Shown in pieces: positions 14,514 to 45,274 of a stretch of DNA of 64,000 nt (within the stretch, counting starts at the first letter, position 1; every line of letters begins with the position of its first letter). Where the stretch lies: the NCBI GenBank assembly GCA_963281255.1, contig OY725493.1:310001-374000 (forward strand), in the 5' to 3' direction. The position numbers and the translations under genes were made by a program. The notes beneath the pieces were generated by a model, which saw only the letters and a program-made list of their open reading frames with translations, was not told the DNA's origin and did no database searches. Origin of the DNA: Aphrocallistes beatrix. Its lineage: Eukaryota; Porifera; Hexactinellida; Sceptrulophora; Aphrocallistidae.

Positions 14514-17500
14514 CTATTTCTCCCACCAGTAACTCCTCGCATACAGTTTCCTCCTGTGCATCAGCACTGCATCTGCTATAGCGTGGTTAGGAATGAGGTC
14601 TGAAGAGCGTAGAGGAGTGTGGCTGATAGGATCTGTGTGTGTATTCTCTATGTGCTGTAGAATAGCGTGACGTTCATACGTGTTACCTTCAGGAGTCATG
14701 ACAGGATTGTCGAACAGTTGATTTGTGATAAAACAAACTAGAGCTGGAGGATGAGAGATGTTAGAATAGTCTGATTTTATCTTGAAATCTTGTTCTATGG
14801 TAAACAATGTTTTGCCTTTTAGACTCAAGATTTCGCAGAGACCATTTGCTGTCTTATCATACAAATCCTTGTACCAAATTATTATTTCTAACACCTTGCT
14901 TCTAACTGCATGTGATATGATTGGTTGAGCTAGCATAGAGTGGATTGCATCTAGAATTTGACGGAGTGAGACACTAGGAGAGTAGTCTTCTATGAGAATA
15001 GGATGACATATGTGTCCTGCCTTGTCTACGTTAGGATGATAGACTGATGATAGAAATCTCAGTTTAGGCGGGTAATGTGGGTACTGTTCTCCGAAATTCA
15101 ACTCCAGTATAAGTATAGAATCTTCAAAAGGAGAGTGTATTGGTCCTTGCATGAAGATTATCCATTTCAGAATTTCATTTCTGAATGGATAGAGTTTGCA
15201 GTAAGGATTGGGACTCTTAATGTAAGCAGTAACTTTCCTCAAAATGTGTAAACAGTTAGATATTGTGCCTTGAGATATCATAGCCTTCTGATATTCGTCT
15301 TTATCTCTCTCAGAGTTTTCAAGGAATTCTTCTGTACTAATAAGTTCTGAAGCAATTTGACTTGAGAGAAAGTTATAGGTTCCAAAATTATCACTCTGCG
15401 CATCAACACCACTCAGTATGTCTTGTAACACTGTGCAATATTCCAATATCGGATTAGTTGGAGGGTATATATTGTTTTCTTTTGAAATGGTTTTTGATAT
15501 TGGTTTATATGTAATGTGTACACCTCTAGTTGTCTTGCAAAGCTGTTCTAAATTATGTGCGAATCTTTCTGATAGAATAACGTTGTTCACCACACAAGTG
15601 GAGTTGTAGAGTCTCCGTTCAAATGAGTTAGTCTTAGCTCCATAATACTTTTTGCTAGTTTCACCATTAGTAAAGAGAAAAATCTCTGTTTTCAATTCCT
15701 TACTTGGACTGGAATATGAATTAATACAATAATCAATTGAAGTTTGGATTATTCCATCAGTAGGCCGATATTTCTCGTAATATGTAGGTTTAAACTTTTC
15801 TAAATATTTTTTTAATTTTGTTAAAACCACATCGTATTCAAAAGTAGGCTTCATTAGTTCCATAGTTCGAACATCATGATTGTTTGATATTACTATGACA
15901 CCGAGCAAATACTTAAATTGAGATCCAACAAGATAGTCCACGAGATTTTCTATTAACATGTTAGCAGCATCAAGTTGACTGAGTGCAGGGTTAGGTACCC
16001 TTTGAATTCTTGAGTTTTCAAGGAATGCCCAACTCATATCACTACTGATGTCTAGTATGATTATAATCTTGGGGTAACTGTTTATATTGGATATCTCGAG
16101 ACGTTTTGAAATGTTAATATCATGAGGATTGTATGAGTAACATCTACCATCTTCTGGGGAGAAATAGTTGAAGTATCCATACCTCCCTTCAGTCCTTCCT
16201 AGGAACACACAGGGACTAGACAGACCACGAATCAGTGGAAGCATCAGTCCGTACGATTTCCTTTCTTCTACGAAACTCTTGTAAAGCTGTACTGGATGTT
16301 GTAATGGAAATCTGTGCTTAACTCCTTCAGTGAAATCTTCCAATCTAGTGGGAGGAGTATAGTTAAACGCATCGTGTGTGGAAGAGGCGTTTCTCCAAGT
16401 TACGATTGTATCTTGGTTGGGAGGGAATGCTTGCAAGAGTCTACGGGTATCGTCATCTCTCGGATTCTCTCGTGTCCGTTTTGAAATGAAAGTAGTTTCG
16501 TAGATCTCTGTCAATTGTAGATCAGGTGTTAGTGCGTGTTCTTCTATGTGCATCCACAGGTGTGGGAATTTGGAGATGGTGGGTCTATCTGAAGTTGTGG
16601 AGAGAAGAGAAATGGTTGTAATGATGCCTTCATTGATGGCTATTCTGTGTGGTAGAGATGTGGGGGATTGAGTGAATAGGAGATAGAGAGAGTAGACGAG
16701 TGGAGGAGAACATGAAATCTTCCTAAGCAGTCCCAGTCTCCTCAGCAGTCTGTCTTTATCTCTGTTCTCTCCATACTCTCTCACTAAGAAGAGGAGATAC
16801 GCGTTGAATGTGTTGAAATCTGGACTGAAATTAGACGGATAGCATGAAGTGTAGACTGAATGAAATGCACTGAAAGGTTCATTGTTAATATACGTGTCAG
16901 AAATTGTGAAAGATAGGTTTTTCCTGTTAATATATTTATTTAAAATGCCCACGTTATCTGGGGCAATCTCCTCGCATTGGTTTGTTACACTGAAGTAATA
17001 TATGTTAATGCAACTAATAAGAATGTGCATTTCCAAAGATAAAAGTATTTTCAGGTCTGAATAGAAAATGTGTTTTTTATTGAATTTAAGTTCCTTTCTG
17101 ATGTCACTATCTTTCAGTTGAATTCTAATTACAAATTCATCGCAATCAACATCACTCACGAACTTATATTCTTTGAATAGTTTCTTAGGGTAAGCATATA
17201 TCAACTCATTATCTCGTAGTCCCCAGTTAGAGAGAGGTTCTATGTAGACTTTAGGAGTAGGTGCGAGGGGATAACCTGTCTCTGAGTACAGTTCTACACT
17301 CGTGAAGTTAACTCCCTTCACTTCCTTTCTTAAAACCTGATAGACTGTTCGTACAAACTCATAGTACTTCATGGATTGATTAATATCTAGTGGGTACACT
17401 GTATTGCATACAATTCCTTCTTGATTTAGAAATTTGCATTTTATTTTCAGTTTATTCAATTTATCATTTTTCGAGATTACCTTTGCTGCTGCACCATGCC

Positions 17501-17573
17501 TTGTTAATGGGATGGACTCATGTACACCAGTACTTCCATGTTGTATCATCGTAACAGGATCTGGAATTATATC
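14514..17573 (-). CDS. Effector exon: Ubl-like x2, vWA, E2 (UBC), U-box
   Basis: Phase-0 exon from a TTTGTATGTAG acceptor at 17574; eight codons precede the first methionine at 17549. About 1019 residues. Two beta-grasp-like segments (about 35-125 and 135-230), a helical region (to about 480), a vWA domain from about 490 with degenerate MIDAS (DISSD), a UBC domain with HPN near 840 and a cysteine about 8 residues later (HICHPIL), and a U-box from about 935 (CFITNQLFDNPV, EGNTYER). This combines E2 and E3 elements in one chain. It joins in frame to the SAM exon at 18842-19051, giving SAM-Ubl-vWA-UBC-U-box of about 1090 residues. Most complete member of the HPN subfamily. Confidence 0.88.
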   Translation of the reverse strand, partial: DIIPDPVTMIQHGSTGVHESIPLTRHGAAAKVISKNDKLNKLKIKCKFLNQEGIVCNTVYPLDINQSMKYYEFVRTVYQVLRKEVKGVNFTSVELYSETGYPLAPTPKVYIEPLSNWGLRDNELIYAYPKKLFKEYKFVSDVDCDEFVIRIQLKDSDIRKELKFNKKHIFYSDLKILLSLEMHILISCINIYYFSVTNQCEEIAPDNVGILNKYINRKNLSFTISDTYINNEPFSAFHSVYTSCYPSNFSPDFNTFNAYLLFLVREYGENRDKDRLLRRLGLLRKISCSPPLVYSLYLLFTQSPTSLPHRIAINEGIITTISLLSTTSDRPTISKFPHLWMHIEEHALTPDLQLTEIYETTFISKRTRENPRDDDTRRLLQAFPPNQDTIVTWRNASSTHDAFNYTPPTRLEDFTEGVKHRFPLQHPVQLYKSFVEERKSYGLMLPLIRGLSSPCVFLGRTEGRYGYFNYFSPEDGRCYSYNPHDINISKRLEISNINSYPKIIIILDISSDMSWAFLENSRIQRVPNPALSQLDAANMLIENLVDYLVGSQFKYLLGVIVISNNHDVRTMELMKPTFEYDVVLTKLKKYLEKFKPTYYEKYRPTDGIIQTSIDYCINSYSSPSKELKTEIFLFTNGETSKKYYGAKTNSFERRLYNSTCVVNNVILSERFAHNLEQLCKTTRGVHITYKPISKTISKENNIYPPTNPILEYCTVLQDILSGVDAQSDNFGTYNFLSSQIASELISTEEFLENSERDKDEYQKAMISQGTISNCLHILRKVTAYIKSPNPYCKLYPFRNEILKWIIFMQGPIHSPFEDSILILELNFGEQYPHYPPKLRFLSSVYHPNVDKAGHICHPILIEDYSPSVSLRQILDAIHSMLAQPIISHAVRSKVLEIIIWYKDLYDKTANGLCEILSLKGKTLFTIEQDFKIKSDYSNISHPPALVCFITNQLFDNPVMTPEGNTYERHAILQHIENTHTDPISHTPLRSSDLIPNHAIADAVLMHRRKLYARSYWWEK

Positions 17574-18841: not shown

Positions 18842-19051
18842 CTTGATGGTAGAGTCGCAAAGCCTTTTGAATCTGTTCATTTCAAAAACAGTCATCCCAG
18901 CTTCTTTCAATAAGTTTAGTTCTTGAAGAAATCGCTTAAAATCTGTAATTCTTTCGACATGTAAAGTTCCATTACTGCTGAATTTATCTCTGTACTTCGT
19001 TAATTTAAGTTTTTCAAGAAATTCATCAATTTGTACCTTATCATCGGTCAT
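18842..19051 (-). CDS. SAM-domain adaptor exon (minus-strand gene)
   Basis: 70 codons, MTDDKVQIDEFLEKLKL to DSTIK, ending at a phase-0 donor AAG|GTTTGT. It can be spliced to the effector exon ending at 17573. The helical pattern EFLEKLKLTKYRDKF and EAGMTVFEMNRFKRL matches SAM helices 1 and 5. It starts 243 bp from the oppositely oriented SAM exon at 19295. Confidence 0.8.
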
Positions 19052-19294: not shown

Positions 19295-19495
19295 ATGGCT
19301 AGCTGTGAAGGGACTCTGGAAGAATTTCTGGACAATAACAATTTAGGGAAATATTATGAAAAGTTTAAAGAGCAAGGAGCATTTGATATTCAAGATGTTC
19401 TAACTGGTGTTGATAAGGACGTACTCACTCAAGACATTGGGATGTCAAATCTGGAGGCAAACAAGTTCATGAAAATCATTACTAGGCTCAACGGA
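19295..19495 (+). CDS. SAM-domain adaptor exon (plus-strand gene)
   Basis: 67 codons, MASCEGTLEEFLDNNNL to ITRLNG, with a strong phase-0 donor GGA|GTAAGT. Pattern EEFLDNNNLGKYYEKF and DIGMSNLEANKFMKI fits a SAM domain. The next plus-strand phase-0 exon is the effector at 25792, across a 6.3-kb repeat-filled intron. Confidence 0.75.
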
Positions 19496-25791: not shown

Positions 25792-28700
25792 GCACCAACT
25801 TCCGTTGCTCCATCAGGCCAGGATCAGACCAATTTGAGTAATGAAGCCTATAAGATACAAACCAGAAAAGCTGCGCTTGACATTCAGTATCAGCTGTTTA
25901 CGAACCTAACTCCTGAAAAGAAACGAGTAGGACCTTTCAACACTGATCAAATCCTGTACTGCGACCTCGTTAACATTATATGCAATCAAGAACGAAATGA
26001 GTTGGGAGAAGACATGACGGTAGAACTGTACACCTGTGAAGGGTACCCATTAGCCACTAGACCTATCTCCTACATAAGCAAACTGTCCGACTGGTGTCTT
26101 GAGGAGTATCCTGACACTCCTCTACTCTATGCTGTTCCTAGACTTAAATGCTATACTGACAAGTGTACACAGTACATGACGGCAGCTCCTCTCTGTGATG
26201 GAACTGATTCTATCTTCATTCGGAATGAAGAATGCGGATTCAGTATGAATCAAATCCGAACTAATTGCACACAGGGCACGTATTTCCAGTTAATAAAGAG
26301 AATACAAGATATGACAGGAATTCCAGGCCACCTTATCCAATTGTACCAAGCTGGCACCTTTATCCATTCATCTACAGATGTCACATTAAATGAACTAAAT
26401 ATTGCGAATCAGTCCGCTTTGGAAATAAAGCCAATTATAAATTTCTGGACTCAAGGGAAGGATAAGAATTTTATGCTACAAGAGTGCAAACCAACTTGGC
26501 ATCAGGAACAAAGTACTTATGGGAGCACGTTCTTTTTCAGCTGTCTCTACTCGCTAGCTGATTGGATGGCAGAACCTCTGCAACAAACATCGGGAATATT
26601 ACATAGAACTTTAGGACACATACGCAGCATAACAGGATGTCCTCCACTCATCCACGCACTCAATCTATTATTCTCTAAAGAAACTCTAACTCTCCCTCAC
26701 AGAGTTGCTATTCAGCAATGTTTGGTTTTGCTATTCAAAATGATAAAACCAAAAACACCAAAATTACACTTAACCAATTTTGAGGTCATAAATTCAGAAA
26801 AAGTGACAGAATATTCAAATTATTTTTGGGTTTATTTGGTTGACAGTTCAACACCTGGTCACACGCATTCGGAACAATACTCCACATTCAAACTCATCTG
26901 TAGTGAAACCTACCACCGTATGACTGACCCTGTGATAGTGAAGGATGTCAATGGAGTAGAACACATCCTTGAACAAACTAAAGTGAGTACCGAGATCATT
27001 GTTAAGTATCTGTACAACTATAAACGTATGCTCAAGTGTTTCATTGGAGATGAGGCAGTTGTTTGGAATTGTATTAGCATTCCTACTTGTGGGATTGACT
27101 TAACTGGAGAATGGAAGAGTCTTGTCAAGAAATGTAAGAATTATCCAGCACTCTGTGTCCAAGCACCTCTTAACGTTAAATCCACTCAATGTCGTAGACC
27201 ATCCATGATTCCCACTGGAAACGGGAATATCGGCGTCTACATAGATAGTTCTAAAGATACAAATAAACCTCATGTGTATTATGAGGTTACTACTGGACAA
27301 TCCGTATTATTCGATGCTCATGAATTGGATAGAGATGTGAAGTTGAAGCAGCCTCCTTGTTTCAAGAGACTTGCATTGCTCACGAACCCTGACGGGCAAG
27401 GTTTACAAGCCATCACTCGCGATCCAGAAGAAGTTATAATGGTCATTTTGGACACCAGTGGATCAATGGGATCGGTTTATCTGGATGGTAAGACTAATTA
27501 TCAGTCAGTACTTGAGGCATTCAGTGCTTTCTGCGATCGTTCTACTGCCTATGACTTGAAACATGTAATTGGACTAACTTTGTTTGCGAAAAACTGCAGT
27601 TTACAATATCCTCTTTCTGAAAACTTTCGGGAGTTTAATAATCAGTTTGGAAACTTTCCACCAGGAACACATACAGCAATATACGTAGCAATCAACTTCG
27701 CAATCCAACAGTTGAACAATTTCACAACTTTACATCCAGAATATAGAGAAGTACCTCGTAGGATATTATGCCTGACAGATGGAGGAGATAATCATTCGAA
27801 TCTAACGTCACAAGGAGCAACTCAATTGCTGATAGAAAATAAAATAATAATGGACTGTGTGTTGTTGTGTGATGGTATAGTAGAAACGCATGCTATTGCT
27901 AAAGCAAGTGGAGGGTATTCTTTCAGACCCGAAGATTCACAGGAAATGTTGAACATATTTGAACAGGAAACAATGCTTTCAATGAAGACCAGACAGCATT
28001 GCACAGCAGCTTTTGTTCCTGGAGAAGAGATTGATCTTATGTCACAAGTCATTCTACCAATCGATACAGAGCCTACTCACTTGCTACCTGAAAAGATTAA
28101 CATAAAGGTACAAACACCTCAAAAGTGTCTCGCACGTGCTCTTATCCAGAGACAGCTGTCTTCTCACATCAACACTGATCTAACTAAAAGGATCTTACAA
28201 GAGCTTTCCTACTATCAAGCACATCCTCACCCAGCTATCGAGGTGTTCCCTGGAGAAGAACACATTGACTTCTGGAGGATTATAATGGAAGGACCAGAAG
28301 GTACACCTTACGAAGGAGGAATATTTGAGCTGTTCATTGAGTTCATTAATGAATATCCAACCAAACCACCTAACATCCGATTCATCACACCTATCTACCA
28401 TTGTAACATCAACAGTTCAGGACGAATTTGCCACACAATCCTGGATAGGTTCTATGCCCCCGGGGTGAGGGTAGGGGAGATCTTCAACCACGTGTATGGA
28501 CTCCTCATTGACGCAGAGCCTGATGACCCATTGGACAGTGTGAAGGCCACACTACTACGTTGTGATAGAGATGAATATTTGGATAATGCTAGATATCACA
28601 CTGACCAACATGCAAAAGCTAGAACCAAGAGACAAGTCCGTATTGATCTTCTTGGTAATGATCAGAATGTGCAGGTGAACTATCCAGCTCACTTGGTGTG

Positions 28701-28914
28701 TCCACTAACATTGGAGCTTTTTGTGGATCCAGTTTCAAACGCGGATGGAGAGACATACGAGAGAGAAGCTATCTTGGAGCACCTCGGGAGCGGAAAGAAC
28801 TACGATCCTTTCACATTCCGTGAGCTACATGAAGATGAGTTGCGTCCGAATAAAGCAGTAGGGAAGGCAGTGACAGAGTTCAAGCAAGAGATTGAAAGAG
28901 CTGGTCAACTGTAA
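25792..28914 (+). CDS. Effector exon: Ubl-like x2, vWA, E2 (UBC), U-box (HCN type)
   Basis: Phase-0 exon after a CAACTAG acceptor at 25791; the first codons read APTSVAPSG, and no ATG is needed because the SAM exon at 19295 supplies it. About 1040 residues. The second beta-grasp segment (TYFQLIKRIQDMTGIPGHLI) resembles ubiquitin's helix region. vWA with an intact MIDAS (DTSGS) near residue 550 and TDGGDN later. UBC near 785-945 with HCN in place of HPN but a cysteine in GRICHTIL. U-box from about 960 (CPLTLELFVDPV, DGETYER). AATAAA overlaps the region 4 bp after the stop. Intact and the best candidate for a working E2-E3 chain. Confidence 0.88.
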   Translation, partial: APTSVAPSGQDQTNLSNEAYKIQTRKAALDIQYQLFTNLTPEKKRVGPFNTDQILYCDLVNIICNQERNELGEDMTVELYTCEGYPLATRPISYISKLSDWCLEEYPDTPLLYAVPRLKCYTDKCTQYMTAAPLCDGTDSIFIRNEECGFSMNQIRTNCTQGTYFQLIKRIQDMTGIPGHLIQLYQAGTFIHSSTDVTLNELNIANQSALEIKPIINFWTQGKDKNFMLQECKPTWHQEQSTYGSTFFFSCLYSLADWMAEPLQQTSGILHRTLGHIRSITGCPPLIHALNLLFSKETLTLPHRVAIQQCLVLLFKMIKPKTPKLHLTNFEVINSEKVTEYSNYFWVYLVDSSTPGHTHSEQYSTFKLICSETYHRMTDPVIVKDVNGVEHILEQTKVSTEIIVKYLYNYKRMLKCFIGDEAVVWNCISIPTCGIDLTGEWKSLVKKCKNYPALCVQAPLNVKSTQCRRPSMIPTGNGNIGVYIDSSKDTNKPHVYYEVTTGQSVLFDAHELDRDVKLKQPPCFKRLALLTNPDGQGLQAITRDPEEVIMVILDTSGSMGSVYLDGKTNYQSVLEAFSAFCDRSTAYDLKHVIGLTLFAKNCSLQYPLSENFREFNNQFGNFPPGTHTAIYVAINFAIQQLNNFTTLHPEYREVPRRILCLTDGGDNHSNLTSQGATQLLIENKIIMDCVLLCDGIVETHAIAKASGGYSFRPEDSQEMLNIFEQETMLSMKTRQHCTAAFVPGEEIDLMSQVILPIDTEPTHLLPEKINIKVQTPQKCLARALIQRQLSSHINTDLTKRILQELSYYQAHPHPAIEVFPGEEHIDFWRIIMEGPEGTPYEGGIFELFIEFINEYPTKPPNIRFITPIYHCNINSSGRICHTILDRFYAPGVRVGEIFNHVYGLLIDAEPDDPLDSVKATLLRCDRDEYLDNARYHTDQHAKARTKRQVRIDLLGNDQNVQVNYPAHLVCPLTLELFVDPVSNADGETYEREAILEHLGSGKNYDPFTFRELHEDELRPNKAVGKAVTEFKQEIERAGQL

Positions 28915-28917
28915 ACC

Positions 28918-30184: not shown

Positions 30185-30394
30185 ATGGCAACGGAAATTC
30201 CAGAAATGTCATTGCATGATTATCTCAAGGAGATACGGCTTGACAAGTTTGAACAAAAGCTTAACAAAAAAGGCGTCCATTCGGTTCGTGATTTTGAAAC
30301 TATCGATCAATCATCGCTGATTTCAGAAGTAGGGATGAATCTAGCTCAAGCCAAGTACTTAGAAAGAAGAATGGAAGTAATGTTTCCAGATTTA
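30185..30394 (+). CDS. SAM-domain adaptor exon
   Basis: 70 codons, MATEIPEMSLHDYLKEIRL to VMFPDL, with phase-0 donor TTA|GTGAGT. SAM helices are visible in HDYLKEIRLDKFEQKL and EVGMNLAQAKYLERR. It joins in frame to the short exon at 32387 and then to the effector at 32996. Decayed paralogues are at 8343-8571 and about 60890-61015. Confidence 0.8.
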
Positions 30395-32386: not shown

Positions 32387-32473
32387 AAACTGAAAGAAGA
32401 AATACTTCCACCGTTACCACCGAGATCTGCTGCAACAAAAATAAACTCTGATTTGAAACCAAAAAAAGTTGAG
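32387..32473 (+). CDS. 29-codon linker exon, duplicate of effector exon start
   Basis: Acceptor TTTGTAG at 32386 and donor GAG|GTAAGT at 32473, both phase 0. Encodes KLKEEILPPLPPRSAATKI and about ten more residues, closely matching the first codons of the effector exon at 32996 (KPKEIVPPLPPKSAATQ). Homology continues past the donor into decayed coding sequence (to about 32555), so this is a partial duplication in which a new GTAAGT turned the copy into an extra exon. Confidence 0.65.
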
Positions 32474-32995: not shown

Positions 32996-35900
32996 AAACC
33001 AAAAGAAATCGTTCCACCGTTACCACCGAAATCTGCTGCAACACAGCAGAACTCTGGTTTGAAACAAAAGAAAACTGGGGCAAGTGATTCCGACTTTCCA
33101 ATGTTAAGGATAAAATGTAAATTCCTAGACAGGCAGGGAATTTTCAACAATATAGTGTATTCCATCGACGTATTGCGCTTGGTTAAGTACTACGAATTCG
33201 TACATCAAATCTATGAAATCTTAAGGAAGGAAAAAAAAGAGATTAACTTCACGAGCGTAGAACTGTACTCAGAGACAGGATGTCCCCTCGCACCCTCTCC
33301 CAATCTATATTTAGAATCTCTTCATACCTGGGAACTAATGAATGATGATTTGATATATGCCTATCCTAAGAAACTATTCAACAAATATATTTTTGGAAGT
33401 GACATTGATTGTGAGGAATTCGTAATCAGCATTCAACTGAAAGATAGCAACATCAGAAAAGAATTCATATTCAATAAAGAGAACATTTCTTGTTTTGACT
33501 TGAAAATACGTATATCCTTGGACATGCACATCCTCACCGAATGTATTAGCATCCACTACTTCAATCTTGCAAGCCAGTGCGAAGAGGTTGCTCCAGATGA
33601 TATGAACATACTAAAGGAAACCATTGGCAGCCATAATCTATCTTTCACAATTTCTGACACTTATTTCGACAATGAAATTCGTATTCAGTCAGTTTACACT
33701 TCATGTTTTCCGTCCAGTTCCTTACCAAAATTCCACACACTGAATGCGGATATTCAGGAGTTAGTGAGAGAGTACGGAGAGAACAGAGATAAAGATAAAC
33801 TGCTAAGGAAACTGGGACTGCTTAAAAGATTTTCTTATTCGCCTCCACTCGTCCACGCTCTCTATTTCCTGTTCACTGGATCCCCCACATCTCTGCCACA
33901 CAAAATAGCCATCAATGAAGGCATCATTACAACCATTCACCTTCACTCCGCAAGTTCTGATAGGCCCACCATCATGACATTCACGCAAGTGTGGAGGCAC
34001 ATCGAAGAACACAGACTAACACCTGATCTCCAATTAACAGTAATATGCAGAAAGACTCCCAAACCAAAACGTACACAAGAGAAACCGGGAAAAGACGAAG
34101 GGGAAATTCCGAGGGAAGGCGAAGAGATTCCAAGAGAAAACGGACAAGAGATACTGAGAATGGATGAAGAGATACCGAGAGAAGGCGAACAAGAGAAAGC
34201 AAAAGAAGATGGACAAGACATTCCGAGAGAAAATGAAGAAATTCTCAAGGAAAGCGAAGAGATCCCGAGAGAAAATGGGCAATATATACTGGACATTACA
34301 AGAGAAGGCGAAGAGATCCCGAGAGAAGGTGATGAGATTCCAAGAGATGGTGAAGACATTCTCAAGGAAAGCGAAGAGATCCCGAGAGAAAACGGACAAG
34401 AGATTCAGAGAGAAGGTGTAGAGATCCCGAGAGAAGGCGAAGACGTTCTAAGAGAAGGCGAAGAGATCCCGAGAGAAGGCGAAGACGTTCTAAGAGAAGG
34501 CGAAGGCGTTCTAAGAGAAGGCGAAGAGATCCCGAGAGAAGGCGAAGACGTTCTAAGAGAAGGCGAAGACATTCTAAGAGAAGGCGAAGATATCCCGAGA
34601 GAAGGCGAAGATATCCCGAGAGAAGGCGAAGAGATCCCTAGAGAAGGCGAAGAGATCCCGAGAGAAGGCGAAGAGATCCCTAGAGAAGGTGAAGATATCC
34701 CGAGAGAAGGCGAAGAGATCCCTAGAGAAGGTGAAGACACTCCGAGAGAAGGTGAAGAGATTCCGAGAGAAGGTGAAGAGATCCCGAGAGAAGACGCAGA
34801 GATCCCTAGAGAAGGTAAAGAGATCCCTAGAGAAAACGGACAAGATATACTGAGAGAAGGCGAAGAGATCCCAAGAGAAGGCGAAGAGATCCCGAGAGAA
34901 GGTGAAGACATTCCGAAAGAAGGCGAAGAGATTCCGAGAGAAGGCGAAGATATCCCGAGAGAAGGCGAAGAGATCCCGAGAGAAGGTGAAGACATTCCGA
35001 GAGAAAGCGAAGAGATCCCGAGAGAAGGTGAAGAGATCCCGAGAGAAGGCGAAGACACTCCGAGAGAAGGTGAAGACATTCTGAGAGAAGGCGAAGACAT
35101 CCCAAGAGAAAAGGAGACCCATACATTCTTGCAAGTAGCCCCGTTCAGCCAAGAGACAATCTCAATTAAGCTAAATGCCCCTACTACGTATGCTATGCAC
35201 AATCTCTCCAAGATTATAATTGTATTAGGCATCACTTGTGATATCAGTCAGACAGTTCTTGGAAACATCGCACTTCACTCCGAGCCAATTCCCGCGCTGA
35301 CTCATCTAAATTCCGCCATCAACGTGATAGAGACTCTCATAGACTTCCTTATAAGGTCTCAATACAAGTGTTTGCTCGGCGCTATCGTGATATCCAATGA
35401 TCCTAAAGTCCGAAACGCTTACTGTGAAATAATGAAACCGACCATTGAATATGGCGAAGTTTTGAAAGAATTGAAATTACACATGGAAAAGTTCAAGCAT
35501 GCCTATTACATGAGAAGTAACCTTAGTGATGGCATAATCGTAAACTCACTCGATTTTTGTATTAACTCATATTCCGATTCCAATGAAGCTGGAAGGACAG
35601 AGATTTTTCTTTTTACCAACAGCAAAACTAATGAGAAACACTATGGTACTAAGATTACTGGTTTCAAGCAAAGGCTGCATAACTCCTCCTGCGTGTTGAA
35701 TAACTTCATTCTTTCAGACCAATACTCACATAACTTAGAAGAACTGTCTAAACTAACTAAAGGAGTCCACGTAACTTATAAATCGATATTGAAATGTCTG
35801 TTGAATGAAAACAGCATATCCGCGCCAACTATTTCAGTGTTGAAAGGTATGCTCTCAGTTAGTGGGCAGGATGCAAACCTTGGAACTTATGAACTTCTCT

Positions 35901-36439
35901 GTACCCAACTTTCTGGTCAGTCAATTAGCATAGAAGAATTCCTTGAAAATTCTGAGAGAGATAAAGAGGAATATCAGACTGTGATGGCTTACGTTGATAG
36001 CCCAAGTCCTCACTGCAAACTCTATCATCTCAGAAATGAAGTTCTGAAATGGATAATCATCATGCAAGGACCAATAGACTCTCCTTTTGAAGGTTCTATA
36101 TTTATAATGGAGTTGAATTTCGGAGAACAGTACCCACATTACCCGCCTAAACTGAGATTTCTATCATCAGTCTATCATCCTAACGTGGACACTAAAGGAT
36201 ACGTGTGTCATCCTATTCTCAAAGAAAAGTATACTCGTATTGTCTCACTCCGTCAAATTCTAGATGCCATCCACTCTATGCTAGCTCAACCAATCGTATC
36301 ACATGCAGTTAGAATCAAGGTGCTAGAAACAGCTCAATGGAATGTTGGATTGTACAACCAGATCGTCAATACTTTCTGTGAAACTCTGAGCTTAAAAGGC
36401 AAAACCTTGTCTACCATTGAACAAGATTTCAAGATATAA
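32996..36439 (+). CDS. Effector exon with heptad-repeat insert: Ubl-like x2, vWA, E2; U-box lost
   Basis: Phase-0 exon after TTTTGTAG. About 1147 residues. The two beta-grasp-like segments and helical region are followed, where paralogues have about 200 conserved residues, by about 340 residues built from a 7-residue acidic/basic unit (EGEEIPR and variants). A vWA-like domain follows with the first MIDAS Asp replaced (LGITCD), so metal binding is unlikely. The UBC domain keeps HPN and a cysteine (YVCHPIL). The frame stops at QDFKI where the paralogue at 14514 reads DFKIKSDYS and continues into the U-box: an AAA lysine codon is TAA here. Long frame kept open through the repeat argues that it is translated. 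Confidence 0.8.
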   Translation, partial: KPKEIVPPLPPKSAATQQNSGLKQKKTGASDSDFPMLRIKCKFLDRQGIFNNIVYSIDVLRLVKYYEFVHQIYEILRKEKKEINFTSVELYSETGCPLAPSPNLYLESLHTWELMNDDLIYAYPKKLFNKYIFGSDIDCEEFVISIQLKDSNIRKEFIFNKENISCFDLKIRISLDMHILTECISIHYFNLASQCEEVAPDDMNILKETIGSHNLSFTISDTYFDNEIRIQSVYTSCFPSSSLPKFHTLNADIQELVREYGENRDKDKLLRKLGLLKRFSYSPPLVHALYFLFTGSPTSLPHKIAINEGIITTIHLHSASSDRPTIMTFTQVWRHIEEHRLTPDLQLTVICRKTPKPKRTQEKPGKDEGEIPREGEEIPRENGQEILRMDEEIPREGEQEKAKEDGQDIPRENEEILKESEEIPRENGQYILDITREGEEIPREGDEIPRDGEDILKESEEIPRENGQEIQREGVEIPREGEDVLREGEEIPREGEDVLREGEGVLREGEEIPREGEDVLREGEDILREGEDIPREGEDIPREGEEIPREGEEIPREGEEIPREGEDIPREGEEIPREGEDTPREGEEIPREGEEIPREDAEIPREGKEIPRENGQDILREGEEIPREGEEIPREGEDIPKEGEEIPREGEDIPREGEEIPREGEDIPRESEEIPREGEEIPREGEDTPREGEDILREGEDIPREKETHTFLQVAPFSQETISIKLNAPTTYAMHNLSKIIIVLGITCDISQTVLGNIALHSEPIPALTHLNSAINVIETLIDFLIRSQYKCLLGAIVISNDPKVRNAYCEIMKPTIEYGEVLKELKLHMEKFKHAYYMRSNLSDGIIVNSLDFCINSYSDSNEAGRTEIFLFTNSKTNEKHYGTKITGFKQRLHNSSCVLNNFILSDQYSHNLEELSKLTKGVHVTYKSILKCLLNENSISAPTISVLKGMLSVSGQDANLGTYELLCTQLSGQSISIEEFLENSERDKEEYQTVMAYVDSPSPHCKLYHLRNEVLKWIIIMQGPIDSPFEGSIFIMELNFGEQYPHYPPKLRFLSSVYHPNVDTKGYVCHPILKEKYTRIVSLRQILDAIHSMLAQPIVSHAVRIKVLETAQWNVGLYNQIVNTFCETLSLKGKTLSTIEQDFKI
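34100..35112 (+). repeat. Coding minisatellite, 21-bp unit
   Basis: About 48 units of agagaaggcgaagagatccc with scattered 24-30 bp variants containing aaacggacaag. All units keep the reading frame. The opposite strand also stays open over much of the array because of its composition; I treat those frames as artefacts. Confidence 0.95.
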
Positions 36440-38218: not shown

Positions 38219-38293
38219 TAATATATATATATATATATATATAAATTTGTATTTTTGAATTAGATTGATATATCATGACTATGAACATTTGAG

Positions 38294-39223
38294 ATGGCTG
38301 AAAGAGAAGTTTATAATACAATCGATTGTAAAGAACTGCTCCTGCTGATTGAAGTTGAGAAAGATCATTATGGAGGCTACAAGCAAGATTTACTAGAAAA
38401 TGAATTGGATGAAATGGGAACAGACTTCTGTGTCTGTAATAAGTGTAATGGAGTCATGCGAAACGCTTGCTTAGTAAACGGATCAGATCAGATATTAGTT
38501 TGTGAAGTGTGCAAAATGGGAGAAGACTCTATACCGATGGTAAAAGCAAGAAAGAACATTCCTAAATTGAAAGCTAAGTGTCCTCTGTTGAAGAGAGGAT
38601 GTGTGTGGAAAGGAATTCTGGGAGAAATCGATGCACACTTGGATGGATGTACAGAATTCATTCTGAACTGTTCTAACTTGTGTGGCGTTCTTTTGAAGCG
38701 ATTTGAATTACAGAATCATTGCGAAAACGAGTGTCAGCTTCGAATAGTCAAGTGTAAATATTGTGGAGCTACAATCCAATACAAAGTATTGGAAAATCAT
38801 AACAAAATCTGCCTAGAATTTCCTTTAGTTTGTCCTAACGAATGCTTGAAAAGTATAATGCGTAAAGAAATAAAATCACACATTGAAAAAGAATGCTCTA
38901 ATACACTAGTAGCATGCCCATATAAGGAAATGGGATGTGAAGTGTTAAGCAAACGATCTAAGTTACAGGAACATGAGAAAACATTTGAATCAAACCATTT
39001 GAACACAACCAAAGTATTTTATCATAATAAAGTGAAAAAAATGGAATCAATCATTCACGATCAAAAAGATGAAATTAAACAATTAAATGTTGAGGTTCGA
39101 AATCTGCAAGAAGAATGTCAGCGATTAAGAATTACAAAGCCACCTGCTCTAGCATTGACTACGCCAAGTATTGAAGTTGATGAGCTAGCAAAACTGGTCA
39201 AAGTTAACTCAGGATCGAGTGAG
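38294..39223 (+). CDS. Adaptor exon: RING-like and TRAF-type zinc fingers, coiled coil
   Basis: Starts MAEREVYNTID. Same layout as 6667-7596: reduced RING-like finger (VCNKC ... VCEVCK), five TRAF-type Cys/His units to about residue 235, then a coiled coil (KDEIKQLNVEVRNLQEE). A phase-0 donor GAG|GTAGTT at 39223 can join the effector exon at 42173; unspliced, the frame ends at 39259. No MATH domain. It is intact, and with its effector exon gives zinc-finger-Ubl-vWA-UBC-U-box. Confidence 0.8.
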
Positions 39224-39776: not shown

Positions 39777-42112
39777 AGCGCGCTTCGCTTGCATGCGCTG
39801 TACGGCTGGCAGACACTTTGTGTCCGCCGGAGGCGCCCTTTGGGCGCCTGGGGTCGCATTGATTAATTATAAGGGAAATAACATCTCTAAATACGTCTCT
39901 CCATAGCCTACTCTAATAATGCCTCACAGTAAAATAACCAAGGATGCGGTAATAGCCGAATGGATTAATATACGATTAGCCTAAAGTCGTCAACCATGTA
40001 GGATAGGCATTAATAATGTATTACCAGCATATATAAACATGGCATCAAATAACATATATTCGTTGTCAAAATTTCGATTCGTCATCATATCATTGCGCAA
40101 CAGGTCATTTTAAGTACGATTTTGGCAATTTTCTAAGCTGTTTTAACCCTATTTGTAAATGGTATTAAGGTGTGATTTTTGTGTAGAACCAAGATTAGTA
40201 CGAGTTGAATTCTTCAATGGAATGTTGTTACATTCCTGCGTTGCTATGGTAAAGCATTTTGGTCAGTTTGGGCCATATCCTGGAAACTGTAAGAACCAGG
40301 TCTTCAAATTTGATTTTATTTGATAGGCAATTGGCTACTTCCTATTAGGTAATAATACAATTTAAACTTCTAAATTCACAGACTATAGATTTATGAGACA
40401 ATTTAGTGTTTTGGCCACATTCTTAAAATCAACCCATAACTCAAAACTCGTTGAATTTAGAAGTTCAAGTTGTATTATCACCTAATAGGAAGTAGGCCAT
40501 TGCCTATCAAACACGATCGAATTTGAAGACCTAGTTCTTACAGTTTGCAGGATATGACCCAAACTGAACAAAATGCTTTACCATAGCAACGCAGGAATGT
40601 AACAACATTCCATTGAAAAATTCTTCAAATTTTTCAAATCAACTCGTACTAATCTTGGTTCTACACAAAAATCACACTTTAATACCATTTAGAAATAGGG
40701 TTAAAACAGCTTAGAAAATCGCCTAATCGTGCTTAAAATGACCTATTGCAGAATGATATGATGACTAATCGAAATTTTTCCAACGGATGTATGTACTTTG
40801 ATATCATGTTTATATATGTTGGTAATACATTCTTAATGGCTATTCCGCATGGTTAACGATTTCAGGCTAATTGTTGATTTATCCATTCGGCTATTACTTC
40901 ATCCCTAGTCCATGATTTTCAGTCTACTGTGAGGCATTATTAGAGTAGGCTATGGTCTCTCCTACTGTTATAATCGATATCGCACGAAAAATCGACAAAA
41001 TCATCAATTATTAAAATTTTGATGAGTAATGATGACGTCATAACAAAGTGATGAGTCATCATTTTTTGATGATAGTATGATAGTATATCATATGTTGAGT
41101 ATGTTAGTATACAGACTCTATTAAAATTTCAGCCTGCTATCTCCTATAATGGCTGAGTTATGCTCGAATAACTGTTTTTTCAAGTTTCTTCAATCAATTC
41201 GTTACATATATATATATATATATATAATTTGATAATTTGATAATTTCATTGTTAATTCCATAAGTTACGTATTAAATGATAACAAATAATTTGGATAAAT
41301 TACAAATGTCGTTTCTAGAGACGTGAAATAAATAGATTTAAACTTCTTGAGTTTCCGTGACTCATCTTTTGCTCTTTGAGACGAATTCATATTCTTAACA
41401 GTGTTGGAAAGTATACAGTTACACGTAGTGAATATGAGCTTCTTGAGAACGTCCCATCGGAAAGTTTGCAGGTTGGACACTGGGTGCGCCAAATTTCATC
41501 ATGTTCTCCTTCAAAATAAAAAAGGGTCAGGTTCACTAATATACTGCGTGAAGCTCCTCCAAGTAATTTATCGAATAACTGTGGTTTCAATTCAATGAGA
41601 GTGTATATCTTGGCCCCGAATGTCAAGGGACGTGAAGGCGTTTTGCCAAGAATGTTGGAAGCGTTATCGCAGGGTTGGAGGAAGGGTGGGTGTATCGTGG
41701 GCATGGAGTACCCGAAATTATTATCACTGATTTTTGGCATGTGGGAGTCTTTTGGCTATGGCTCCACTAAGTTCTGAGCTCAGAGCAAAATGTCGACTCA
41801 TCATGGAATTATGACGTCATTGTCTAGAATGTGTCTATTAATATACCTCATATAGGATGTAACTATCATTAAAAAAATGATGACTCGTCACTCTGTCATG
41901 ACGTCATCATTACGCATAAAATTTTTTAAAATTGACAAATTTGGCGATTTTTCGGGCGATATCGAGTATAACAGTACCACAGACGTATTTCGAGATGTAT
42001 CTTGTATCTCCCTTACAATTAATCAGTGCGACCCCAGGCGCCCGAAAGGCGCCTCCGGCGGACGCAAATAGTCCGCCAACCGCGCTGCTCAAGCAAGCGA
42101 AGCGCGCTTGTA
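39777..42112. mobile_element. Foldback element with internal cargo
   Basis: Left arm starts AGCGCGCTTCGCTTGC (39777) and ends at a (TA)n near 41213; right arm (41736-42112) is the reverse complement ending GCAAGCGAAGCGCGCTTG. Between them 41214-41735 is unrelated to the arms and holds an unrecognised minus-strand frame (41387-41740). The left arm is interrupted by the element at 39903-40954. Confidence 0.7.
39903..40954. mobile_element. Nested palindromic element (1052 bp), 8-bp duplication
   Basis: Inverted ends ATAGCCTACTCTAATAATGC; the duplication GTCTCTCC lies at 39895-39902 and 40955-40962. Arms of about 480 bp are inverted copies. The 8-bp duplication fits a hAT-like superfamily. No coding capacity. 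Confidence 0.88.
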
Positions 42113-42172
42113 TATATTATTTATCCCATAATGAGCGAAATGCGCTTGTTTTGAGTATAAACTGTATATTAG

Positions 42173-45100
42173 ATCTCATCTCCTGTGGTATTATCAAGTG
42201 AGGATCAGAAGATACAAACTAGAAAAGCTGCGCTTGAGATTAAATATCAGCTGTTTACGAGCCTAGTTCCTGAAAAGAAACGAGTAGGACCTTTCAACAC
42301 TGATCAAATCCTGTACTGCGACCTAGTTAACATTATATGCAATCAAGAACGAAATGAGTTGGGAGAAGACATGACGGTAGAACTGTACACCTGTGAAGGG
42401 TACCCATTAGCCACTAGACCTATCTCCTACATAAGCAAACTGTCCGACTGGTGTCTTGAGGAGTATCCTGACACTCCTCTACTCTATGCTGTTCCTAGAC
42501 TTAAATACTATACTGACAAGTGTACACAGTACATGACGGCAGCTCCTCTCTGTGATGGAACTGATGCTATCTTTCTTCGAAATACTGAATGTGGATTTAA
42601 AACTCATTTCCGAACTAATTGTACACAGGGCACGTATTTCCAGTTAATCAAGAGAATACAAGATATGACAAGAATTCCAGGCCATCTTATCCAATTGTAC
42701 AAAGCTGACAACTTTATCCATTCATCTACTGATGTCACATTAGATAAACTGGATATCGTGAATCAGTCCGCTCTAGAGATGAAGCCCATCATAGATTTCT
42801 GGATTCTAGGGAAGGATAGGAATTTTATGCTACAAGAGTGTAAACCAACTTGGCATCAGGAACAAAGTACTTATGGAAGCACGTTCTTTTTCAGCTGTCT
42901 CTACTCGCTAGCTGATTGGATGGCAGAACCTCTGCAACAAACATCGGGAGTATTACTTAGAACATTAGGGCACATACGCAGCATTATAGGATGTCCTCCA
43001 CTCATCCACGCACTCAATCTATTATTCTCAAAAGAAACTCTAACTCTCCCTCACAGAGTTGCTATTCAGGAATGTTTGGTTCTGCTATTCAAAGTGATTA
43101 AACCAAAAACATTTCACTTGCCCAATTTTGAGATAATAAATGCTGAAAAGGTAACAGAATATTCGAATTATTTTTGGGTTTATTTGATTGATAATTCAAC
43201 ACCTGGTCACACACAATCGGAACAATACTCCACGTTCAAACTCACCTGCAGTGAATCACACCATCGTATGGATGACCCTGTGATAGTAAAGGACGTCAAT
43301 GGAGTGGAACACATAGCTGAACAAAATACAGTAGATGCCGAGATCATTGTTAAGTATCTGTACAACTATAAACGTATGCTCAAGTGTTTCATTGGAGATG
43401 AGGCAGTTGTATGGAATGGTATTTACGTCCCTACTTGTGGAATTGACTTAACTGGAGAATGGAAGGGTCTAATCAAGAGATGTAAGAACTATCCCGCACT
43501 CTGTGTCCAAGCACCTCTTAACGTTAAGTCCACAGAATGTCATAAACCCTGCATGATTCCCACTGAAAACGGGAATATCGGTGTCTACATAGATAGTTCT
43601 AAAGATACAAACAAACCTCATATCTATTATGAAGTTACTACTGGGCAATCCATCTTATTCGATGCTCATGAATTGGATAGAGCAGTAAAAAAAAACAAAT
43701 CTCTCATCGAAACTCTAGCTAAAGATTGGCAAACATTACAACCACACTTCGAGGGTTTGGAAGTCATCACTCGTGATCCAGAAGAAATCATAATGGTCAT
43801 TCTGGACACCAGTGTATCGATGAATTCGGCTTATCTGAACGATAAGACTAAGTATGAGTCAGTATTTGAGGCATTCCTAGCTTTCTGTGATCGTACAACT
43901 GCCTATGACTTGAAACATTTAATTGGGTTAATTTTGTTCGCGAAAAACTGCAAATTACAATACCCTCTTTCTGAAAACTTTCGAGAATTCAATTATCAGT
44001 TCGAAAATCCCTTGCAAGGGAAAAGTATCAAATCGATATACGACGCGATAAAGTTTGCAATTGAGAATTTAAACAAATTTACAACTTTGTTTCCAAAATA
44101 CAAAGCCGTTCCAAGGAGGATCTTGTGTTTGACAGATGGAGGAGATAATAATTCGAATATTACGCCAACAAAAGTCACTCAATTGCTGATAGAAAATAAA
44201 ATAATAATGGATTGCGTGTTGTTGTGTAATAGTGTAGTAGAAACACATGCTATTGCTAAAGCAAGTGGAGGTTATTCTTTCATACCCAAAGATTCACTGG
44301 AAATGTTGAGCATATTTGAACAGGAAACAATGCTTTCAATGAAGATTCGAAAACAGTGCACAGCTTCCTTTATCCCTGGAGGGAAGATTGATCTTACTTC
44401 AAAAGCTCTTCTACCTTTTGGGGAAGAGCCTACTCACTTGCTACCTGACAGGATTCACATAAAGGTACAAACAGCTCTAAAGTGCCTCGCACGGGCGCTT
44501 ATTCAGAAACAGCTGTCTACTCACACTAATAACGCTGATCTAACTAAAAGGATCTTACAAGAACTTTCTTTCTACCAAGCACATCCTCATCCAGCTATTG
44601 AAGTGTTCCCTGGAGAAGAACACTTTGACTTCTGGAGGATTATAATGGAAGGACCAGAAGATACACCTTACGAAGGAGGAATATTTGAATTGTTCATTGA
44701 GTTTACTAATGAATATCCCTCCAAACCTCCTAACATCCGATTCATCACACCTATCTACCATTGTAGCATCAACAGTTCAGGACGAATCGGTCTCACAATC
44801 TTAGATAGGTTCTATGCCCCCGGGGTGAGGGTAGGGGATATCTTCAACCACGTGTATGGACACCTCATTGACGCAGAGCCTGATGACCCATTGGACAGTG
44901 TGAAGGCTACACTACTACGTTTTGATAGAAATGAATATTTGAAGAAAGCTAGAGATTACACTGAACAACATGCAAAGATTTACTCTAAAAAGGATGTTCG
45001 CATTAGCCTATTAGGCTCAGATCAGAATGTACAGGTGAACTATCCAGCTGAATTGGTATGTCCACTAACATTGGAGCTCTTTGAAAACCCAGTTTCGACT

Positions 45101-45274
45101 GTAGCAGGAGAAACATACGAGAGAGAAGCTATCTTGAAACACCTCAGGAGCGGAAAGAACTACGATCCATTCACATCCCGTGAGCTACATGAGGATGAGT
45201 TGCGTCCGAATAAAGCAGTGAGGAAGGCAGTGACAGAGTTCAAGCAAGAGATTGAAAGAGCTGGTCAACTCTAA
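42173..45274 (+). CDS. Effector exon: Ubl-like x2, vWA, Cys-less E2 (UEV-like), U-box
   Basis: Phase-0 exon after GTATATTAG (first codons ISSPVVLSS). About 1033 residues, closely related to the 25792 effector. vWA MIDAS kept (DTSVS). In the UBC domain HCS replaces HPN/HCN and the active-site segment reads GRIGLTIL: the catalytic Cys is Gly (codon near 44788). It therefore cannot form a ubiquitin thioester by itself and resembles UEV proteins (family knowledge: Cys-less E2 variants act as partners of active E2s). The U-box is intact (CPLTLELFENPV, AGETYER, LRPN). The frame is otherwise undamaged, so loss of the Cys is not simple decay. It joins in frame to the zinc-finger exon at 38294. Confidence 0.87.
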   Translation: MSSPVVLSSEDQKIQTRKAALEIKYQLFTSLVPEKKRVGPFNTDQILYCDLVNIICNQERNELGEDMTVELYTCEGYPLATRPISYISKLSDWCLEEYPDTPLLYAVPRLKYYTDKCTQYMTAAPLCDGTDAIFLRNTECGFKTHFRTNCTQGTYFQLIKRIQDMTRIPGHLIQLYKADNFIHSSTDVTLDKLDIVNQSALEMKPIIDFWILGKDRNFMLQECKPTWHQEQSTYGSTFFFSCLYSLADWMAEPLQQTSGVLLRTLGHIRSIIGCPPLIHALNLLFSKETLTLPHRVAIQECLVLLFKVIKPKTFHLPNFEIINAEKVTEYSNYFWVYLIDNSTPGHTQSEQYSTFKLTCSESHHRMDDPVIVKDVNGVEHIAEQNTVDAEIIVKYLYNYKRMLKCFIGDEAVVWNGIYVPTCGIDLTGEWKGLIKRCKNYPALCVQAPLNVKSTECHKPCMIPTENGNIGVYIDSSKDTNKPHIYYEVTTGQSILFDAHELDRAVKKNKSLIETLAKDWQTLQPHFEGLEVITRDPEEIIMVILDTSVSMNSAYLNDKTKYESVFEAFLAFCDRTTAYDLKHLIGLILFAKNCKLQYPLSENFREFNYQFENPLQGKSIKSIYDAIKFAIENLNKFTTLFPKYKAVPRRILCLTDGGDNNSNITPTKVTQLLIENKIIMDCVLLCNSVVETHAIAKASGGYSFIPKDSLEMLSIFEQETMLSMKIRKQCTASFIPGGKIDLTSKALLPFGEEPTHLLPDRIHIKVQTALKCLARALIQKQLSTHTNNADLTKRILQELSFYQAHPHPAIEVFPGEEHFDFWRIIMEGPEDTPYEGGIFELFIEFTNEYPSKPPNIRFITPIYHCSINSSGRIGLTILDRFYAPGVRVGDIFNHVYGHLIDAEPDDPLDSVKATLLRFDRNEYLKKARDYTEQHAKIYSKKDVRISLLGSDQNVQVNYPAELVCPLTLELFENPVSTVAGETYEREAILKHLRSGKNYDPFTSRELHEDELRPNKAVRKAVTEFKQEIERAGQL

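Follow-up and report, generated by a model that had tools for sequence, protein, structure and literature searches.

The stretch of DNA analysed here, the window, covers 64,000 nt of Aphrocallistes beatrix (GCA_963281255.1, contig OY725493.1, forward-strand positions 310,001 to 374,000) and holds five long A-type or B-type bodies, each an open single exon, together with exons encoding SAM domains or TRAF-type zinc fingers (ZnF) (Table 1). In the wider region of 204 kb that we examined around it we counted 18 bodies, 12 of them intact, with open frames of 913 aa or more, and six broken, each split among several frames, and a six-frame search of both strands gave 14 SAM and 6 ZnF exons. The cluster comprises about 18 copies of a fused E2–E3 body behind a SAM domain, in place of which some copies may have a ZnF.

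Table 1. Features of the gene family within the window. Genes are named after the lower coordinate of their body; a slash marks the putative splice site.
Feature	Position	Strand	Remarks
B-type body without U-box, UBC with cysteine	1006..3747	-	
TRAF-type ZnF exon, putative first exon of 1006 gene	6667..7596	-	weak donor GAG/GTATTG
Degenerate SAM exon, 5' of 6667 ZnF exon	8369..8566	-	no ATG, no donor
SAM exon, body unassigned	10845..11042	-	
B-type body	14514..17573	-	divergent N-terminal region, UBC with cysteine, C-terminal U-box
SAM first exon (70 codons), 14514 gene	18842..19051	-	donor AAG/GTTTGT, phase 0
SAM first exon, 25792 gene	19295..19495	+	donor GGA/GTAAGT, phase 0
A-type body	25792..28914	+	Pfam, alignment, profile comparison
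SAM first exon, 32996 gene	30185..30394	+	donor TTA/GTGAGT, phase 0
87-nt linker exon, 32996 gene	32387..32473	+	phase 0-0, from the sequence
B-type body without U-box, UBC with cysteine	32996..36439	+	
TRAF-type ZnF exon, putative first exon of 42173 gene	38294..39223	+	weak donor GAG/GTAGTT
A-type body with U-box, E2 cysteine replaced (ICH to IGL)	42173..45274	+	
U-box fragment of a family member	45786..46007	+	
ZnF exon, no body downstream	57890..58675	-	
ZnF exon with stops, 218 bp upstream of broken B body	61545..62399	+	
Broken B-type body, start only, continuing past the window	62617..64000 (C7:372617-375548)	+	

E2 enzymes and U-box E3 ligases are ordinarily separate proteins. A first-pass annotation of this DNA had read the bodies as a combination of beta-grasp, vWA, UBC and U-box, and the domain search it proposed bears this out for the UBC, since UQ_con lies far above the Pfam cut-off in all five window bodies, and in part for the remainder, with a C-terminal U-box in three (14514, 25792 and 42173; none by Pfam in 1006 and 32996), a vWA before the UBC in two (25792 and 42173, both A-type; none by Pfam in the three B-type window bodies) and the ubiquitin fold in 0/5 by Pfam. 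That fold is recognized by Pfam in the homologues L053, P0054 and P0028, the first two of which align with the window body there. Among the intact cluster bodies 10 of 12 have the U-box, and the E2 catalytic cysteine is likewise found in 10 of 12 (4/5 in the window), being missing in 42173 and C7:281172; the family UBC aligns to UBE2D3 and UBE2A and retains both the cysteine and the Asn of HxN. In the 25792 body the order is Ubl1 (tentative), Ubl2, helical region, degenerate U-box-like domain, vWA with DxSxS, UBC with predicted catalytic Cys880, and U-box. The internal U-box-like domain matched the C-terminal U-box at 97.2% in a profile comparison where five shuffled controls reached at most 0.8%. 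In the 14514 body, whose vWA Pfam does not see, the aligned segment has an altered metal-site motif, and since this motif is altered in B-type copies, ligand binding by the vWA cannot be general. The 32996 body carries an in-frame minisatellite (21-bp x 38) at 34301-35110. These matches support the prediction that the body is a fused E2–E3.

A SAM exon with a phase-0 donor lies upstream of three of the five window bodies, and in the 204 kb 10 of 14 SAM-like exons end in a phase-0 GT[AG]AGT. The first-pass annotation had given phase-0 donors to both kinds of first exon, which agrees with the sequence for SAM and less so for ZnF, where donors are weak and in the window are overlapped by a phase-1 GTGAGG. 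Its clear phase-0 acceptors are present at all five window bodies (TAG directly before 25792, 17573, 32996, 42173 and 3747), as is the phase 0-0 exon that it predicted at 32387, whose peptide resembles the initial ~29 codons of the 32996 body; across the cluster, 15 of the 16 body ORFs examined (of 18 units) start directly after TAG. Directly 5' of 16 of the 18 bodies, and on the same strand, lies a SAM or ZnF exon, a pairing not reached in any of 20,000 strand shuffles (mean 8.6, maximum 15) or 20,000 random placements (mean 5.8, maximum 14). The SAM exon at 10845 is followed on its strand by the degenerate SAM, ZnF exon 6667 and the 1006 body, and could be part of the 1006 gene.

Most SAM exons score under the Pfam cut-offs: of four window exons scanned only 19295-19495 exceeds a curated one (SAM_2, 20.7 vs 20.5 bits), and 18842..19051 stays below (SAM_TNK 0.0011, SAM_1 0.0032). 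Additional evidence for the join comes from L053 (C11), an intron-less SAM–body gene of the same genome with one uninterrupted ORF of 1162 aa, in which ubiquitin, UQ_con and two U-box stretches exceed the Pfam cut-off and vWA and SAM_TNK (0.027) do not; its SAM is recognized mainly through the orthologues P0044 and P0045, which both have SAM_TNK, and the C11 protein P0043 scored 0.0069 against our cluster SAM profile, poorer than the best shuffle. SAM also stands at the N-terminus of the Oopsacas models P0014, P0021 and P0051 and of the EukProt Trinity proteins P0027, P0029 and P0033 of a relative (a Pfam scan found none in P0021 or P0027). The exons behind the cluster profile had been detected using an earlier profile in which P0014, P0021, P0027 and P0029 were already present, which makes the matches of the cluster profile to these four proteins partly circular. 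The Trinity proteins all belong to a single gene cluster (DN182_c0_g1) and may be paralogue chimeras produced by assembly. In all, the evidence supports SAM exon and body forming one protein.

It might instead be that SAM or ZnF exons are shared, each being alternatively spliced to more than one body. The body acceptors are interchangeable in phase (15/16 after TAG), two SAM exons stand upstream at some loci (C7:386408 and 386942), and Trinity isoforms i9 and i11 show two SAM N-termini on apparently the same body. However, paralogue chimeras are common in Trinity assemblies and this isoform pairing may be one, and 16 of the 18 bodies have a nearest module to themselves; we hold such sharing to be quite improbable.

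The cluster SAM profile recognizes the N-terminal segment of Oscarella P0054 (6e-11) and that of teleost proteins such as P0066 (8e-10), and 37 of the 95 proteins compared outscore the best of 475 shuffled proteins (1.4e-3). When L053 was searched, 36 of 59 matches aligned across at least 88% of its length; the family spans sponges, lamprey and teleosts, and relatives occur in ciliates and a fungus. The uncharacterised Oscarella lobularis protein P0054 and Oopsacas minuta LOD99_14356, LOD99_14351 and LOD99_10138 share the order SAM–Ubl–vWA–UBC–U-box with our genes, LOD99_10138 (P0014, a partial model without UBC and U-box) grouping with the A-type (SH-aLRT 100), whereas the B-type bodies stand apart on a very long branch of their own. 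A hake protein of ~1000 aa, P0073, likewise unites vWA, UBC and U-box in a single chain and aligns with the C11 copy along most of its length. It is labelled ‘putative bifunctional E2/E3 enzyme R795’, a name presumably taken from the mimivirus gene R795; two scans of viral contigs gave 11 and 29 pattern matches and no relative, and the viral link is therefore unconfirmed. Teleost members too have a SAM-like start, but unlike in the sponge cluster no ZnF-linked copy was seen among them. In Paramecium the Ubl–vWA–UBC proteins have a core homologous to the sponge bodies; P0085, the one scanned, showed no C-terminal U-box and no SAM match, the others being placed as kin by precomputed domains. Because the layout is common to Oscarella and teleost homologues the E2–E3 fusion is ancient, and the intron-less C11 gene together with the SAM starts of those homologues indicates that SAM is ancestral. 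The proposal that exon shuffling recently fitted an E2–E3 effector with interchangeable recognition modules, SAM or ZnF, in the service of innate immunity or of regulated self-assembly, is therefore unlikely, and where the origin of SAM is concerned it is refuted. The proposal would fit the phase-0 first exons that the modules occupy and an apparent SAM exchange between B paralogues, but SAM is ancestral to the family, as Oscarella, teleosts and C11 show, and SAM and body distances are concordant in the A-type (r 0.70). Within B the correlation is -0.15, and B body 297523 has a linker 76% identical to that of 324517 at a SAM distance of 0.80, which makes one SAM exon swap probable; modules may be exchanged between B paralogues. 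As for the claim that no such family had been described, homologues do exist in databases, one under the E2/E3 label given above, and our literature search found no paper on a SAM–Ubl–vWA–UBC–U-box family.

The status of the ZnF exons is less clear. They score well as zf-TRAF (Pfam, 9.7e-24 for the 38285 exon and 7.7e-17 for the 6634 exon) but differ from TRAF proteins in having no MATH/TRAF-C, which was absent from the two window ZnF ORFs and from 5/5 scanned on C9 and C14. They could be stand-alone TRAF-type genes lying between E2–E3 genes, with only the SAM–body genes true fusions, a reading to which we give slightly less than an even chance. It is favoured by at least 152 ZnF matches in the genome (127 of 452 candidates scored), many on C9 and some with several in a frame; by the five C9 and C14 ORFs without MATH; by a protein search with the ZnF part of the joined ZnF–body chain (1243 candidates) that returned two ZnF–USP proteins and no ZnF–body; by weak, ambiguous donors; by exon 57890, which has no body downstream; and by the 1006 gene, where two SAM exons lie beyond the ZnF exon on its 5' side. 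Against it, five of six ZnF exons lie just 5' of a same-strand body, the same kind of ZnF module shares a single frame with a USP domain on C17, purifying selection acts on two ZnF-linked A bodies, and the cluster ZnF exons have no conserved stop: four copies (one broken) share TGAG then GTA and end at four different stops 8-11 codons further on, and two others have phase-0 ends (AAG/GTAATA and AAG/GTAACT). In addition, 42173 has no Met before residue 67, which falls within Ubl1, so an upstream exon is needed and the ZnF is the only one found. The 281172 body has earlier Mets than 42173, like its own SAM-linked sister, and body fragments intervene between ZnF exon 294510 and body 289977. We put a ZnF–body splice at about even odds.

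A post hoc comparison shows the E2 cysteine or the U-box missing in 3/3 intact ZnF-linked bodies vs 1/9 SAM-linked ones: the cysteine in A-type 281172 (Tyr) and 42173 (Gly), the U-box in B-type 1006. One could imagine, though we find it doubtful, that a TRAF-type ZnF first exon replaced SAM more than once (in A-type 281172, A-type 42173 and the B-type), each time with loss of one catalytic half and, as part of the same doubtful scheme, with independent Tyr and Gly replacements, and that selection kept these copies as non-conjugating TRAF-like regulators competing with or recruiting SAM-assembled enzymes, the cluster being a mosaic array with a conserved conjugation core and divergent vWA, Ubl and N-terminal modules.

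Median omega is 0.27 for A, 0.42 for B and 0.37 for the ZnF set, and the branches of the cysteine-less copies 42173 (0.35, 95% 0.26-0.49) and 281172 (0.26, 95% 0.13-0.48) are under purifying selection. That the array consists mostly of decaying pseudogenes with relic junctions is thus very improbable; six of 18 bodies are indeed broken, two ZnF-linked A bodies have lost the E2 cysteine and 1006 and 32996 the U-box, but 12 of 18 remain open and omega is well below 1 in all three sets and on both cysteine-less branches. Divergence is uneven along the chain, the UBC being conserved and the vWA and Ubl2 not; the vWA has the lowest omega in the A-type (0.16), which gives no sign of adaptive change there. 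In B copies the helical middle region is conserved to the level of the UBC, so the contrast is not simply one of catalysis versus binding.

Other proteins share parts of this plan. BIRC6 and UBE2O are E2/E3 hybrid enzymes with both functions on one polypeptide, as here, but the sponge bodies have no BIR (none among the window-body Pfam matches) and a separate U-box and vWA, and we claim homology for the UBC only. Unlike UBE4/UFD2, the window bodies have no Pfam match to the Ufd2P core N-terminal to the U-box. The animal protein WDSUB1 combines SAM and U-box with WD40 repeats (PMC3087547), which had no Pfam match in the window bodies or L053, and Monosiga Mb_UBOXa combines VWA with U-box (PMC3087547); in the part of that source consulted, UBC and vWA are not mentioned for WDSUB1, nor UBC for Mb_UBOXa.

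Taken together, the cluster is probably a tandem, recombining expansion of an ancient eukaryotic single-chain E2–E3 family with a SAM exon spliced in phase 0 to one body exon, the predicted layout being SAM – Ubl1 (tentative) – Ubl2 – helical region – degenerate U-box – vWA – UBC – U-box. Under this tandem-expansion model gene conversion would keep parts such as the UBC alike, chains would assemble through SAM, and the vWA and Ubl2 would bind copy-specific partners; an E1 would charge the UBC of the chain, and its discharge onto bound substrate or the assembly itself would be triggered by the U-box next to it or by that of a neighbouring chain, while ZnF-linked copies without E2 cysteine or U-box might serve as non-conjugating adaptors or brakes. 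New here are the internal U-box-like domain, the uneven divergence of the chain, the probable SAM swap and the post hoc association of ZnF with catalytic loss. The fused E2–E3 behind SAM is, by its predicted domains, an old and little-noticed protein family and would be a ready-made case for control of ubiquitin transfer by proximity and oligomerisation, and the sponge cluster offers a natural experiment in which a near-constant UBC is combined with divergent vWA, Ubl2 and SAM and with selected cysteine-less copies.

Within the 204 kb searched around the window, with a SAM-exon profile and with tblastn using TRAF-type zinc-finger (ZnF) and body queries, we found 18 copies of the body, the large single-exon effector frame, along with 14 SAM-like and 6 ZnF exons. 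Twelve of these bodies are open over 913 aa or more, and the other 6 are broken. A SAM or ZnF exon lies on the same strand immediately 5' of 16 of the 18, at distances of 192 to 20,563 bp, a degree of pairing reached in 0 of 20,000 strand shuffles and 0 of 20,000 random placements; one of the 16 pairs (body 289977 with ZnF exon 294510) has body fragments in between that were not counted as a unit. Six-digit names are coordinates on contig C7, which holds the window at C7:310001-374000 in a genome of 100.5 Mb and 28 contigs. A phase-0 GT[AG]AGT donor ends 10/14 SAM exons, and 15 of the 16 body frames examined begin directly after TAG, although these pairing and junction counts somewhat overstate the evidence because paralogues are not independent. 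The five long effector frames and the splice-junction letters of the first-pass annotation are all present in the sequence, and UBC is matched by Pfam in 5/5 window bodies; its claim that every effector also carries a U-box and a vWA domain held only in part, Pfam matching the U-box in 3/5 and vWA in 2/5. An 87-nt exon at 32387-32473, phase 0 at both ends, gives a peptide similar to the start of the 32996 body and therefore looks like a duplicated linker, and that body contains an in-frame minisatellite (34301-35110; 21 bp x 38 copies) with an EIPREGE-type repeat. Besides the C7 cluster, the 25792 body as genome query found dispersed members on C2 (two), C1, C11 and C14, most other matches spanning the UBC part only. 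Other elements share the window (see table), and a ~1-kb palindromic element (39902-40955) and shorter repeats recur in long cluster introns, for example at 17.7-18.7 kb and 23.8-24.2 kb.

Other elements located in the window
Feature	Position	Strand	Remarks
Ty3/Gypsy-like polyprotein	51873-56096	-	intact frame inside cluster; protease, RT, RNase H, integrase
TLC-domain (TRAM_LAG1_CLN8) gene	12476-13507	-	single exon, among family members

In the C11 copy (L053) SAM region and body form a single uninterrupted 1162-aa frame that runs to the U-box. Its own SAM is faint (SAM_TNK 0.027; with the cluster SAM profile 0.0069, which the best shuffle outscores). The orthologues P0044 and P0045, at 74-76% identity, carry SAM_TNK, and P0044 aligns with L053 across the SAM region. 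A SAM start running on into the body is also found in the Oopsacas minuta models P0014, P0021 and P0051 and in three EukProt Trinity proteins of a relative, with Pfam detecting SAM in P0051, placing it below cut-off in P0029 (EukProt) and finding none in P0021 or P0027 (EukProt). Trinity isoforms i9 and i11 have differing SAM ends on what is apparently the same body; this pairing could be genuine, which would suit the less probable reading that bodies share first exons, or it could come from chimeric assembly. With L053 as protein query at least 59 matches were returned from the best 7998 candidates scored, among them Oopsacas, Oscarella lobularis, many teleosts, lamprey, Paramecium, EukProt tig00021094 and the fungus Mycena floridula, and the alignment covers at least 88% of L053 in 36 of the 59 matches listed; no tetrapod is named among the matches listed from those 7998 candidates, which does not imply absence. 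A profile built from 11 cluster SAM exons recognizes the N-terminal ends of the Oscarella protein (6e-11) and of teleost homologues (best 8e-10, some near noise); 37 of 95 proteins score better than any of 475 shuffled ones (best 1.4e-3), and SAM was therefore not gained in this sponge. Thus the SAM anatomy described in the first-pass annotation is supported, whereas the origin it proposed, a newly shuffled exon, is ruled out by the C11 gene and by the SAM of the Oscarella and teleost homologues, which makes this domain ancient.

Of the 40 matches listed for the 25792 body as protein query, only Oopsacas minuta LOD99_10138 and LOD99_14351 are named proteins. In our tree (a quick method with SH-aLRT support only, for which near-duplicates, fragments and five of the broken bodies were first removed, leaving 67 of the 95 proteins fetched and 13 of the 18 bodies) the A-type bodies group with LOD99_10138 (SH-aLRT 100). 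The B-type bodies lie on a very long branch separate from the rest of the family, the protein-database queries having included no B-type. Within the chain a second, internal U-box-like domain precedes the vWA (profile comparison 97.2%, five controls at most 0.8%), and Pfam places two U-box stretches in each of L053 and P0051. Ubl2 is backed by Pfam in homologues; Ubl1 as a second ubiquitin-type domain stays tentative because its profile comparison with Ubl2, spanning 28 columns, gives a probability of just 36% (no higher than 1.3% in five controls). The UBC can be aligned with UBE2D3 and UBE2A and retains both the cysteine and the HxN Asn, the motif reading HCN instead of HPN in A-type bodies and in all 29 rows of a wide alignment made without B-type, whereas B-type retains HPN. 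The vWA DxSxS motif is kept in 6/6 intact A-type copies, and in B-type this metal-site motif is altered.

Whether the ZnF exons are spliced to bodies as the SAM exons appear to be is, in our judgement, about evenly balanced. In favor of joining, TGAG/GTA is common to four ZnF copies (one already broken) whose stop position is not shared, and two further copies have other phase-0 AAG/GTA donors; however, the ZnF donors are weak and a phase-1 GTGAGG overlaps. Three ZnF copies have similar 5' flanks, which also resemble the flank of a gene at C17:3656642-3662761 (L011, L013), in which the same ZnF module and a USP-type deubiquitinase share one open frame (UCH 9.3e-40 in L013), but a protein search with the ZnF part matched only two such ZnF–USP chains (P0041, P0042), and ZnF frames are very numerous elsewhere in the genome (at least 152 matches, sometimes several per frame). 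In body 42173, which evolves under selection, the first Met is residue 67 and lies within Ubl1, as would suit a body needing an upstream exon. Against this, 281172 itself contains early Met residues, one ZnF exon is not followed by a body, and two SAM exons, one of them degenerate, are present further 5' in the 1006 gene. All three ZnF-linked intact bodies are without one catalytic half (281172 Cys->Tyr; 352173, window 42173, lacking the E2 catalytic cysteine, Cys->Gly; 311009, window 1006, no U-box), compared with 1/9 of the SAM-linked intact bodies (342996, window 32996), a hypergeometric probability of 4/220 across the 12 intact bodies that is uncorrected for the pattern having been found post hoc. 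The two cysteine-less copies are constrained, with omega of 0.26 (0.13-0.48) and 0.35 (0.26-0.49; 200 codon bootstraps). With a window ZnF exon as query, TRAF-type ZnF frames are seen to be hugely expanded at C9 3.15-4.57 Mb and elsewhere (L016-L038); MATH was absent from 5/5 of the expanded frames scanned, and one (L017) ends in an apparent membrane segment. A 693-aa frame at C7:294510-296516 (L012) is a natural chimera of all three parts, consisting of a SAM remnant, the N-terminal part of a B-type body and ZnF.

Median omega comes to 0.27 across 7 A frames, 0.42 across 6 B frames and 0.37 across 4 ZnF exons, and we reject an array of dead genes given the 12/18 open bodies and omega below 1 even in cysteine-less copies. 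Measured against each copy's four nearest neighbors, the B-type UBC is 90-95% identical in 8/10 copies (342996 and 378000 are lower), and identity is likewise high in the helical middle region and over much of the U-box; in vWA, Ubl2 and linkers it mostly drops to 50-70% beyond one or two close partners. These partners shift along the chain, with Ubl2 of 305200 92% identical to 342996 and vWA of 297523 98% identical to 372617. In A-type, median dS is 0.32 for UBC, 0.31 for linker plus Ubl1, 1.16 for vWA and 0.96 for the helical region, and patchy gene conversion would give such uneven divergence. The A-type vWA has the lowest omega of the regions (0.16, U-box left out), so that by this measure its divergence is old rather than adaptive. 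SAM and body distances correlate across 11 pairs (Mantel r 0.42, p 0.013; 0.70 within A, -0.15 within B). The B body 297523 has a linker 76% like that of 324517, yet its SAM belongs to the other type (distance 0.80), and therefore a SAM exon swap is likely, though this body is broken.

Among the proteins described in a survey of animal U-box ligases (PMC3087547) are WDSUB1, which has SAM and U-box, and a Monosiga protein with VWA and U-box. No paper with the SAM–Ubl–vWA–UBC–U-box layout was found among those listed, judging from titles and the starts of abstracts, and the family is apparently undescribed. The Oopsacas genome paper does not mention ubiquitin, TRAF, SAM domain, innate immun(ity) or U-box in its main text (PMC10280926), nor does the Aphrocallistes paper mention ubiquitin, TRAF or SAM domain (PMC10282587). 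Literature queries for R795 with mimivirus or 'putative bifunctional E2' gave nothing on an R795-type enzyme, and two viral-contig scans for a giant-virus link yielded 11 and 29 pattern matches, none of them a relative.

Judged from sequence, this is a real, ancient family of single-chain E2–E3 proteins, which in this sponge has undergone a recombining expansion. SAM domains assemble, and a charged UBC beside a U-box can pass ubiquitin to a bound partner or within an assembly. By analogy with these families, the SAM parts would assemble the E2–E3 chains, the charged UBC next to the U-box would transfer ubiquitin onto a bound partner or inside the assembly, and vWA and Ubl2, the most divergent parts between copies, are candidates for copy-specific binding.
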